Shown here: positions 8,008 through 17,074 of the stretch, piece after piece
Position numbering within the stretch: position 1 is the stretch's first letter
Layout of the letters: each line of letters starts with the position of its first letter
Origin: Salinibaculum litoreum
GTDB taxonomy: Archaea > Halobacteriota > Halobacteria > Halobacteriales > Haloarculaceae
NCBI GenBank assembly: GCA_009789175.1
Contig: CP046866.1
Location: 1,116,001-1,180,000 of the forward strand
Direction: 5' to 3'
DNA length: 64,000 nucleotides
Translations under genes and position numbers: made by a program
Notes under the pieces: model-generated
Database searches by the model: none
The model's input: the letters and a program-made list of their open reading frames with translations, nothing else
Told to the model about the DNA's origin: nothing

Positions 8008-9048
8008 ATGGATACGGCCGACAGAGTCGACCTCGTCACCCGCCACACTGAAGAGGTCGTCACAGAGGAGGAACTCGCTGAGGAACTGGAAGGGGATTCG
8101 CCGTCGGCCTACATCGGCTACGCCCCTACTGGGGAGATGCACATCGGCCACTTCACCACGATGCGCAAACTGGCCGACTTCCTGCAGGCCGGTATCGAGG
8201 TGACCGTCCTCATCGCGGACCTGCACGCCCACCTCGACGACGAGAAAAGTCCCTTCGAGTTGCTCGATGCCCGGTCGGCCTACTACGAGGAGGCCATCCG
8301 CGGGATGATTGACGCGGCCGGTGCCGACCCTGACGAAGTCGAGTTCGTCCGCGGGATGGACTACCAACTCGACGAGGAGTACTCCCTGGAGATGTACCGC
8401 ATGGCTGCCGAGACGACTATCTCCCGCTCACAGCGTGCGGCCAGCGAGGTCGTCCGTGAGAGTGACAGCCCCAATCTCGGCGGGCTCCTCTACCCCCTGA
8501 TGCAGAATCTCGACGTGAAGTCCCTGGGCGCGGACATCGCCTACGGCGGCATCGACCAGCGTGGCATCTACATGCTTGGCCGCGAAATCCTGCCCGACCA
8601 CGGCGGCAAGTCCCCGGTCTGTCTGTTCGCACCACTCCTTTCGGGACTCACCGGCGGCAAGATGAGCGCGTCCGAAGAGGCCTCGAAGGTCAACCTCACT
8701 GACTCCCCCGAGGAGGTTGCCGAGAAGATTGACAACGCCTACTGTCCGATGGGCGAAGTCGAGGACAACGGCGTGCTGGAGTACACGAAGTACCTCGTCT
8801 TCCCGATTCTGGACCAGCGCGACGAAGACTTCGTCGTCGAGCGTCCCGAGGAGTACGGCGGCGACCTCGTCTACGAAACCTACGAGGACCTCGAAGCGGA
8901 CTTCGTCAGCGAGGAACTCCACCCCGCGGACTTCAAAAGCGCTGTCGGCGAGTACATCTCGGAGGTCATCGACCCGATTCGCGAGCGTCTGACCGACCAG
9001 TCGGACCTGCTTGCCGAGGCATACCCCGAGAAGTACGGGGACGAGTAG
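8008..9048 (+). CDS. tyrS: Tyrosine--tRNA ligase
   Basis: 346 aa class I aminoacyl-tRNA synthetase, cytosolic, charging tRNA-Tyr. HIGH signature in GEMHIGHFTT (about residues 46-55) and KMSAS signature in GGKMSASEEA (about 217-226). Length and the lack of an S4-like C-terminal domain are those of the archaeal form. ATG at 8008 follows a TATA box by 27 nt. The next gene begins at the base after its TAG stop, so the pair is co-transcribed. Confidence 0.96.
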   Translation: MDTADRVDLVTRHTEEVVTEEELAEELEGDSPSAYIGYAPTGEMHIGHFTTMRKLADFLQAGIEVTVLIADLHAHLDDEKSPFELLDARSAYYEEAIRGMIDAAGADPDEVEFVRGMDYQLDEEYSLEMYRMAAETTISRSQRAASEVVRESDSPNLGGLLYPLMQNLDVKSLGADIAYGGIDQRGIYMLGREILPDHGGKSPVCLFAPLLSGLTGGKMSASEEASKVNLTDSPEEVAEKIDNAYCPMGEVEDNGVLEYTKYLVFPILDQRDEDFVVERPEEYGGDLVYETYEDLEADFVSEELHPADFKSAVGEYISEVIDPIRERLTDQSDLLAEAYPEKYGDE

Positions 9049-9723
9049 ATGCCCGCGGGTGATGGCGACAGCGTTGACGACCATCGCTCGCAGGCCCGCG
9101 TCCGCGAAGTCTACGACGACATTGCCGACCACTTCGCACAGACCCGCGAATATCCCTGGCCCGAAGTCGAGGAGTTCCTCGATGATATCGACGGCACGCG
9201 CGGCCTCGATGTCGGCTGTGGAAACGGCCGCCATCTGGAAGCCATGGCCGACTGTGTCGACCATGTCATCGGTGTCGACGTGAGTCGGCAACTGCTGGGG
9301 ACTGCGACCGAGCGGATGGCCGAGCGTGGCTGGTCGGGTGCGCTTCTCCAATCAGATGCCGCTGCCTTACCCATCCAGAGTGGGACAATCGACGCCGCAG
9401 TCTACGTCGCAACCCTGCATCACTTGCCCACCACAGAGCAGCGACGGGCGAGCCTGACTGACCTCGCACGGGTACTCACCGAGGAGGGTCGCGCCCTCGT
9501 GAGCGCGTGGAGTACAGCCCACGATAGATTTGACGCTTCGGCCGATGCAGAGGAGGGATTCGATACGACGGTCGACTGGACACTACCGAGCGGAGAGACG
9601 GTCCCACGGTACTATCACATTTACGCGCCGGCCGAGTTCGAGGACGACCTCGCGGCGAGTGCGTTGACCGTCGAGAGTGTCCGGGTGTCAAGTGGGAACT
9701 GCTATGCCGAAGTCAGCGGCTGA
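9049..9723 (+). CDS. Class I SAM methyltransferase, Trm9/ABH8-like
   Basis: 224 aa, ATG immediately after the tyrS stop codon. Motif I LDVGCGNGRHL (about residues 51-61), followed by a conserved DAAALP-type acidic motif and VATLHHLPT. The N-terminal phrase VYDDIADHFAQTREYPWP closely recalls yeast Trm9 and human ALKBH8, which methylate the wobble carboxymethyluridine of tRNA. That resemblance and the operon with TyrRS suggest a tRNA-modifying enzyme (inference from remembered sequences); a generic methyltransferase remains possible. Confidence 0.8.
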   Translation: MPAGDGDSVDDHRSQARVREVYDDIADHFAQTREYPWPEVEEFLDDIDGTRGLDVGCGNGRHLEAMADCVDHVIGVDVSRQLLGTATERMAERGWSGALLQSDAAALPIQSGTIDAAVYVATLHHLPTTEQRRASLTDLARVLTEEGRALVSAWSTAHDRFDASADAEEGFDTTVDWTLPSGETVPRYYHIYAPAEFEDDLAASALTVESVRVSSGNCYAEVSG

Positions 9724-9831
9724 AAGGAAAACGGTATTAATCACCCTCCTGCAAATACGAGTGAGCGCCGGTGGTGAGCAGGGTGGAAGATCCTGCGAAC
9801 GACAGGGCGCGATTGAACGAAGTGAACGAGC

Positions 9832-9902
9832 GCGCCGGTGGTCTAGTGGTAGGACCTGAGCCTTCCAAGCTCATGGCCCGGGTTCAAATCCCGGCCGGCG
9901 CA
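9832..9902 (+). tRNA. tRNA-Gly (anticodon TCC)
   Basis: Complete cloverleaf: acceptor GCGCCGG (9832-9838) pairs with CCGGCGC (9895-9901), discriminator A at 9902; D-stem GTCT/GGAC; anticodon stem TGAGC/GCTCA with loop CTTCCAA, anticodon TCC at 9864-9866; T-arm CCGGG TTCAAAT CCCGG (9878-9894). CCA is not encoded. No intron. A T5 run at 9903-9907 follows directly and could end transcription. Parts of its 3' half are repeated downstream. Confidence 0.97.
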
Positions 9903-9908
9903 TTTTTG

Positions 9909-9930
9909 CCTGAGCTTTCCAAGCTCATGG
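9909..9930 (+). repeat. Partial tRNA-Gly copy: anticodon arm
   Basis: 22 nt matching 9855-9876 of the intact tRNA with one mismatch (C to T in the anticodon loop). The 5' half of the tRNA is absent. It is the left part of a 3'-half copy split by a 66-nt insertion at the variable loop. Confidence 0.85.
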
Positions 9931-9932
9931 GA

Positions 9933-9993
9933 GCAAAACTGAGCGAAGCGACGTTTTGCGACTTCGGAAGACCGAGTACCGCGAGGTCTTCCG
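9933..9993. repeat. Two hairpins inside the split tRNA copy
   Basis: GCAAAAC (9933-9939) pairs with GTTTTGC (9953-9959), and CGGAAGACC (9965-9973) pairs with GGTCTTCCG (9985-9993). Both lie in the 66 nt that separate the two pieces of the partial tRNA copy. Confidence 0.7.
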
Positions 9994-9996
9994 GTA

Positions 9997-10023
9997 GCCC
10001 GGGTTCAAATCCCGGCCGGCGCA
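9997..10023 (+). repeat. Partial tRNA-Gly copy: T-arm and 3' acceptor (att-like)
   Basis: 27 nt identical to 9876-9902 of the intact tRNA. A direct repeat of a tRNA 3' end is the usual footprint of integration by a tyrosine recombinase; no integrase is present in the window. Confidence 0.85.
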
Positions 10024-10053
10024 CTCCCTGCGGTCCTGCGCCACCCGACCCTC

Positions 10054-10119
10054 GCAGACTCTTCGAGTCTGCTCGGTCCCGGCCGGCGCATGCGAGGCGC
10101 GAACGATAGTGAGCGCCTC
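10054..10119. repeat. Further hairpins downstream of tRNA-Gly
   Basis: GCAGACTC TTC GAGTCTGC (10054-10072) is an 8-bp stem with a 3-nt loop; CGAGGCGC (10093-10100) pairs with GCGCCTCG (10113-10120). Similar GAGCG-AGCG motifs continue to about 10150. Typical of haloarchaeal non-coding repeats next to mobile-element sites. Confidence 0.6.
10077..10090 (+). repeat. Third tRNA-Gly 3'-end fragment
   Basis: 14 nt identical to 9889-9902 of tRNA-Gly, ending at the same discriminator base. Short, but the third copy in 190 nt. The rest of 10120-10392 holds no gene I can support. Confidence 0.65.
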
Positions 10120-10392
10120 GAAACGTGAACGGCGAGCGTAGCGAGCCGTGAACGCATTTTCTGCCGAACAACGTGAGGCGAAAATCGACAGAGAGTTGAA
10201 TCACGCGAGACGCGAAATGCAGGAGTTCCACAGGAGAGGGAAGGCTCTTCAGAGCGAGATTCCCGTTCATAGAATCCAGAGGGAGCCATCGCTGTCCGGT
10301 AATGTCACGTGGCGATAAGAAGGGCAAAACTGACAACTGACTGAATAGTGTTCGACGAGAGTCGGACAGGAGTACTGTATTGCTGCAACCGG

Positions 10393-16535: not shown

Positions 16536-16597
16536 CGCATCGAACGTCGCGCGCGGCAGGTAAAAAGCCACGCCGCGGGCGACTCGACCAGGCCGGA

Positions 16598-17074
16598 TTA
16601 GGCGGCCTCTTCTGCGGCTGCCAGCACCTCGTCGTACTCCGGTTCGACGCCGGGGTCGTCGCTGACCCACGCGTAGGTAATCGTGCCGTCGCCGTCGACG
16701 ACGAACACCGACCGCTTGGCCACACCGGGGACCCCCAGACTCTCGAAGTCCATCGACACGTCGTAGGCCTCGATGATTTCTTTCCCGGAGTCGCTGATGA
16801 GGGCAAATTCCAGACCGAGCTGTTCGCGGAACTCGTTCTGTGCGAACGGCGAGTCGACGCTGACGCCGTAGACCGACACACCAGCGTCCTCGAAGGCCGC
16901 GAGGTCATCCTGGAAGGCGTTCATTTCGTGGGTGCACACGCTTGTGAACGCACCGGGGAAGAACGCGAGTACGAGCGGCCCTTCGTCGAGCTGTTCGGAG
17001 AGGGTGAACTCGCCGATATCGCCGTTTGCAAGCGGTGCCGTGAAGTCAGGGGCTTCGTCACCTTCGGATACCAT
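16598..17074 (-). CDS. Peroxiredoxin (AhpC/TSA, BCP-like)
   Basis: 158 aa, ATG 17074. Thioredoxin-fold peroxidase: PGAFTSVCTHEM (about residues 40-51) carries the peroxidatic Cys in the T-x-x-C-T motif, and the catalytic Arg is likely in GVAKRSVFVVD. No obvious second cysteine, so it would act as a 1-Cys type or use an outside thiol. Reduces peroxides in the cytosol. Followed on the same strand by the HD-domain gene. Confidence 0.93.
   Translation of the reverse strand: MVSEGDEAPDFTAPLANGDIGEFTLSEQLDEGPLVLAFFPGAFTSVCTHEMNAFQDDLAAFEDAGVSVYGVSVDSPFAQNEFREQLGLEFALISDSGKEIIEAYDVSMDFESLGVPGVAKRSVFVVDGDGTITYAWVSDDPGVEPEYDEVLAAAEEAA

Follow-up and report, generated by a model that had tools for sequence, protein, structure and literature searches.

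Hairpin inserts bearing copies of tRNA ends around a tRNA-Gly(UCC) gene of Salinibaculum litoreum and other Halobacteriales

Why an intact tRNA gene stands beside broken pieces of itself is the question raised by the tRNA-Gly(UCC) locus of Salinibaculum litoreum. The window analyzed here is a stretch of 64,000 nucleotides of this genome (GenBank assembly GCA_009789175.1, contig CP046866.1, positions 1,116,001 to 1,180,000), and the coordinates of the locus are window positions on the plus strand. The intact tRNA-Gly(UCC) occupies positions 9832–9902 and was identified using ARAGORN and Rfam (RF00005, 71 bits). The original prediction described three partial copies downstream of this gene and read them as possible scars of repeated integration and excision at a tRNA used as an integrase target. 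All three copies were found where they had been placed. The first (9909–9930, 22 nt) was identified by repeat comparison as tRNA positions 24–45, the anticodon arm, with a single mismatch that is a C to T change in the anticodon loop. The second (9997–10023, 27 nt) is identical to tRNA positions 45–71, the T arm and the 3′ strand of the acceptor, and the third (10077–10090, 14 nt) is identical to the 3′ end, tRNA positions 58–71. The gaps between the tRNA and the successive pieces are 6, 66, and 53 nt. The 66-nt gap does interrupt a copy at the variable loop; the split point is tRNA position 45, with one G common to both halves. A variable-loop intron or a split tRNA was rejected for this interrupted copy because tRNA positions 1–23 are missing; only one tRNA is called at the locus by ARAGORN and Rfam.

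The sequences around the copies are structured. The 66-nt insert (9931–9996) folds as a double hairpin (−26.7 kcal/mol) with the stems GCAAAAC/GTTTTGC and CGGAAGACC/GGTCTTCCG. The two loops contain gagcgaagcga and gagtaccgcga and are near a recurrent loop, GARCGNNGYGA. The second spacer (10024–10076) was folded into an inverted copy of the acceptor (10037–10047), which pairs with the 14-nt copy, and a hairpin at 10054–10072. A third palindromic unit (10091–10160) folds as two hairpins (10093–10120 and about 10130–10148) with the same loop motif. On the 5′ side, an exact 11-nt copy of tRNA positions 1–11, GCGCCGGTGGT, is found at 9765–9775, where it pairs with its own inverse as the outer stem of a leader hairpin (9765–9810) supported by folding and covariation. 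A match to the loop motif, GAACGAAGTGA, lies between this hairpin and the tRNA (9815–9825). The TATA-like element TATTAAT (9735–9741), a putative promoter element, is located 23 nt ahead of the 5′-end copy. The 5′-end copy, the double hairpin, and the inverted acceptor copy are additional to the features noted in the original prediction.

Similar copies adjoin other tRNAs. The flanks of the tRNAs in this genome and in a sister species (taken as Salinibaculum sp. KK48) were compared using at least 18 of 22 matches to the tRNA's own 3′ end within 40–260 nt downstream, with mismatched tRNA/flank pairs as the control. An own 3′-end copy was detected at 13 of the 41 tRNAs of this genome versus 19 of 1542 mismatched pairs (1.2%), and at 10 of the 37 tRNAs of the sister species versus 2 of 1212 mismatched pairs (0.17%). 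When the threshold was lowered to 17, 13 and 11 copies were observed in this genome and the sister species, versus permutation maxima of 7 and 5, respectively. Since equally good own-end copies are rare in the mismatched pairs, chance is excluded for the copies in the window. This comparison of own with other 3′ ends replaced an earlier background test (any match with a score of at least 11) that was uninformative because the T-arm consensus is common to all tRNAs. Each copy spans the T loop through the 3′ end of the tRNA that it follows, and the copies lie mostly 70–135 nt downstream of diverse tRNAs (Lys, Arg, Met, Val, Ser, Leu, Glu, Asn, Ile, Thr, and others). The results point to about one-third of haloarchaeal tRNA genes, this one included, being adjoined by hairpin inserts that carry an end of the tRNA itself.

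The set of copy-bearing tRNAs differs between the two species at syntenic positions. Copies are present in this genome only at, for example, Lys(CUU), Lys(UUU), Ser(GGA), and Leu(UAG), and in the sister species only at, for example, Ile, Thr(GGU), and Arg(UCU). In the filled/empty pair at tRNA-Ile, the flank past the distal copy of the filled locus aligns with the flank directly after the tRNA of the empty locus; the pairs at Lys(CUU), Lys(UUU), and Leu(UAG) provide shorter matches of this kind, mostly inside the copied end. Some arrays (Val(UAC), Arg(GCG), and Glu(UUC)) repeat trailer sequence as well, which favors a tandem duplication of the tRNA gene followed by decay, with the pieces at tRNA-Gly as the remains of full tRNA copies. 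This explanation is nevertheless highly improbable. The boundaries of the copies recur (tRNA 1–11, 50/51 to the end, and 58 to the end) and are not those of random decay, most of what is retained is identical to the tRNA, and the spacers, which are conserved hairpins, show no relation to tRNA 5′ halves. At tRNA-Val(UAC) of both species (L066 and L091), the trailer is repeated after the displaced copy; the tRNA part of the repeat is identical and the trailer is slightly diverged, as if only the tRNA part were kept in step.

The gene just upstream of tRNA-Gly(UCC) encodes a class I methyltransferase, which we take to be Trm9-type; its best match in the PDB is the tRNA methyltransferase 5cm2. Genes for a tyrosine–tRNA ligase and this methyltransferase are adjacent to tRNA-Gly(UCC) in the window (8008–9902). 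The methyltransferase was used as bait to collect 80 named haloarchaeal loci, and because the neighborhood is kept in the 57 of these that contain tRNA-Gly, the tRNA may be a substrate of the neighboring enzyme. A downstream copy of the tRNA's own 3′ end (at least 18/20), starting at +76 to +131, is present at 27 of the 56 orthologous Gly(UCC) loci with enough flank, a count taken over related genomes and not over independent events. The original prediction had named an identical arrangement at every haloarchaeal tRNA-Gly(UCC), with no islands, as the finding that would speak against it; the arrangement varies by genome, and islands exist. Where a local tRNA differs from the most frequent sequence, its copy has the local form at 32 of 33 sites and the frequent form at a single site; presumably, the copies were made from the local tRNA or kept identical to it by conversion. 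Upstream copies of the 5′ end, found at 42 of 58 Gly(UCC) loci including that of the window, also follow local variants of the tRNA (e.g., GCGGCGG and GCGCCGA). The distance from the TATA element to the tRNA is mostly 23–49 nt in loci without a 5′ copy and 71–260 nt in nearly all loci with one. The commonest distance from the TATA element to the outermost 5′ copy is 24 nt. These spacings suggest that the insert may have entered between the former transcription start and the tRNA.

The individual spacers of the window have relatives elsewhere. The architecture of the 66-nt insert is shared with an insert inside a Leu(CAA) copy (L048), and double hairpins of this type are also found inside the acceptor copies of two relatives (L006 and L126). 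Spacers related to 10024–10076 occur in the sister species at tRNA-Gly(CCC), Gly(UCC), Ala(CGC), and Arg(CCT), and the copy of tRNA 58–71 recurs in many relatives. Units similar to 10091–10160 are found downstream of tRNA-Gly(CCC) and at scattered sites in other genomes. A hairpin repeat dispersed genome-wide and independent of tRNAs was rejected, with 11 matches to the loop motif across the window versus 7.55 expected; 3 of the 11 fall at the tRNA-Gly locus.

The spacers examined in detail fold as hairpins, most of them with the loop GARCGNNGYGA or a close variant. Many other modules contain an inverted T arm that forms a helix with the T-arm copy. This inverted arm is clearly locus-specific in some modules only (e.g., Ser(GGA), Arg(UCU), Arg(GCG), Thr(GGU), and Arg(CCU)), and neither the Gly copy of the window nor any of the Leu(CAA), Tyr, and Gln modules has one. 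Loop positions 3 and 9 form Watson–Crick pairs in most sense-strand matches in tRNA flanks. Mini-hairpins with a GCGAAGC-like loop and flanking G-A pairs are unusually stable. Hairpins of this kind could stall DNA synthesis, and template switching could then duplicate and invert neighboring tRNA sequence and keep the arms identical, with no mobile element involved. A constant loop on variable and often target-derived stems, Watson–Crick covariation within the loop, and the adjacency of inverted and direct local copies are all consistent with such a replication effect. It is somewhat unlikely as the explanation of the class, since the loop shows a strong preference for the sense strand of the tRNA and spacers at different tRNAs are homologous (shared GAGTCGCAGC...GACCGTCTC), which local switching would not supply. 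At the Gly loci the loop was found 48 times in sense and 0 times in antisense orientation upstream of the tRNA, and 36 and 8 times, respectively, downstream, unlike in distant DNA.

The helices are preserved by compensatory base changes. In an alignment of 29 orthologous leaders, 92.7% of the cells are paired and 77 are doubly changed, versus 24.4 after shuffling; the double changes include C4-G to G4-C, which follows the acceptor stem. The RNAalifold consensus energy of the leader is −11.7 kcal/mol for the sense strand versus −6.5 kcal/mol for the antisense strand, a comparison that favors the strand aligned as sense. Downstream of the tRNA, compensatory changes are found at 11 of 18 pairs. 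Since covariation and folding favor the sense strand, the spacers probably give the tRNA transcript a structured leader and trailer. A different functional account would treat the copies as a conserved element, either an alternative 3′ half or a tRNA-like signal for RNase P or tRNase Z, that is held by sequence selection and not gained by recurrent insertion. The compensatory changes, the termination of the copies at the tRNA 3′ end or close to it, and the way in which the copies track the local tRNA would all agree with this proposal. It appears unlikely, given that the copies are missing from half of the orthologues and from two-thirds of the tRNAs, and that species of a single genus differ by their gain or loss.

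That tRNA-Gly genes serve as integrase targets in haloarchaea is supported by five relatives in which islands of 1.2–8.1 kb follow tRNA-Gly(UCC) (L114, L073, and L116) or tRNA-Gly(CCC) (L115 and L117). Four of the five islands have an integrase-like frame whose start directly follows the tRNA. Three of these frames match the Pfam family Phage_integrase; the fourth (L073) is truncated, has no Pfam match, and was named integrase-like by its likeness to the other three. The displaced copies start at tRNA position 15, 23, 27, 29, or 30 and run to position 71. Archaeal integrases are known to use the anticodon loop, the T loop, or the 3′ end of tRNAs as sites, including a 14-nt site for the SNJ2 integrase (PMC8371274), and Haloquadratum prophages are bounded by partial tRNA duplications (PMC3119063). 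These islands and precedents support the explanation that all of the copies in the window are attachment-site remnants of tyrosine-integrase elements whose islands were later deleted. As an account of all of the copies it is decidedly unlikely. Short copies occur at about one-third of the tRNAs, mostly at a distance of 70–135 nt, where the spacers are homologous hairpins and integrases are absent; copies on the 5′ side are at least as common, and excision leaves no scar. A short T-arm or acceptor copy is also found beyond the displaced copy in five of five islands, and the short copies are therefore independent of the islands. The 8.1-kb island in tRNA-Gly(UCC) (L114:408–8556) has its integrase split into two overlapping frames and carries a large DNA methyltransferase-like gene.

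For the window itself, the original prediction was correct that no integrase remains: no match to Phage_integrase was detected within the window, and the closest one elsewhere in the genome is separated from the tRNA by about 76 kb. No integrase or kilobase-scale element lies between the copies. A tyrosine recombinase that excises an element precisely leaves one restored site, so that integration and excision alone would yield no extra copies; a deletion inside the island is needed. A search of this genome for islands bounded by the 27-nt repeat, as had been proposed, gave no further site, the other matches being tRNA-Gly(CCC), its flank, and an intergenic unit (L004). A displaced 3′ part that begins in the crossover region was found for 9909–10023 only. 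This copy starts at tRNA position 24, within the range of 15–30 seen in the islands, and to this extent the proposed scars stand. The T-arm and 14-nt copies do not fit as scars, since copies of this class are not confined to loci with an island history and are found at 13 of 41 tRNAs as well as beyond the displaced copies of the five islands. For the anticodon-start copy, the most probable origin is an integrase island that lost its interior and left this displaced half behind; the copy may later have been split at the variable loop by the double-hairpin insert.

The favored explanation, to which a probability of roughly 60% is assigned, is that small structured inserts form an array around this one tRNA gene and that the locus is an instance of a Halobacteriales-wide class gained by duplication of tRNA ends. 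The sequences show the copies themselves, their specificity to each locus, their uneven presence among species, the covarying structure, and the taxonomic limits; gain through end duplication, a role at the RNA level, and the past of the anticodon-start copy are inferred. Each insert would consist of one or two hairpins, with one outer arm copying a terminus of the tRNA (positions 1 to about 11 on the 5′ side and about 50–71 or 58–71 on the 3′ side) and the other outer arm often the inverse of that copy. Gain would leave an intact tRNA beside the insert and push the displaced terminus and the old flank outward. Copies could later be lost via recombination between the direct repeats. Possible routes of gain are an integrase-like reaction, an end-duplicating insertion, and template switching at stable hairpins. 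A more specific proposal, offered tentatively and at less than even odds, is that a dedicated process repeatedly inserts tiny elements at both ends of tRNAs, copying the terminus directly and often also inverted, with the tRNA left intact and the insert becoming a structured part of the precursor.

The class is restricted in its taxonomic range. A strict pattern of inverted and direct T loops was detected in 29 of 53 Halobacteriales genomes versus 0 of 242 other Halobacteriota, and the reversed-pattern control gave 0 matches in this genome scan. A unit similar to 10010–10089 of the window, with tRNA-Gly-like ends on both sides, is located in an intergenic region that has no tRNA (L004:1500–1577), and therefore the class is not strictly bound to tRNAs. 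This unit lies directly upstream of an apparent peptidyl-tRNA hydrolase gene. When phage and plasmid sequences were searched with the locus, the matches covered the tRNA itself only. The inverted/direct T-loop hairpin pattern appears in seven viral contigs (L214–L220), in some near the contig ends, and these sites are possibly provirus borders. Elsewhere in the window, ARAGORN calls a tRNA-Lys(CTT) at 16577–16662, within reading frames; this call is probably false because Rfam gives it no support.

Few loci are as strongly conserved as tRNA genes, and yet the borders of these genes are remodeled within a single genus, with the copies staying exactly in step with the tRNA. The modules are a readable record of sequence addition at tRNA ends and bear on why tRNA genes attract insertions. 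They also advise caution, since a partial tRNA copy in haloarchaea is not always the scar of a prophage or island, and they offer a testable class of RNA structure in genetically tractable hosts such as Haloferax and Haloarcula. No description of hairpin modules that copy tRNA ends was found in the open literature searched, a coverage that excludes most subscription journals and preprints; the rebuilding of tRNA surroundings by such inserts is apparently frequent and undescribed.

Several known systems resemble these modules in part. The attL/attR duplications of integrases (PMC8371274; PMC3119063) also place an intact tRNA beside an insert with a displaced 3′ part further out, and the start point of the window's anticodon-start copy fits them. 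The inserts described here differ in being mostly 50–130 nt long, in having no integrase, in adjoining many tRNAs with homologous hairpins, and in including 5′-end copies. Small repeats with no transposase are known in haloarchaea as MITEs, PATEs, and SMRs (PMC3119063). Like these, the modules are short, noncoding, and palindromic, have some dispersed copies (L004 and the relatives of the third unit), and differ in presence or absence between close genomes. Unlike them, the modules have no fixed terminal sequence; their ends copy, and vary with, the neighboring tRNA, and they are concentrated at tRNA flanks. REP elements are likewise intergenic palindromes with hairpin loops, whereas here the loop is conserved, the stems are variable, and the units are tied to tRNA ends. 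Split and intron-containing tRNA genes share the interruption of a tRNA sequence in the variable loop, but the interrupted copy of the window cannot make a tRNA and an intact gene is present. In Caldiarchaeum, fragments of tRNA-Thr are linked to a 1.8-kb mobile element with a recombinase (PMC3293823). There too, a fragment lies next to an intact tRNA and is ascribed to the integration of a mobile element; here, the inserts are the size of hairpins and recur across an order.
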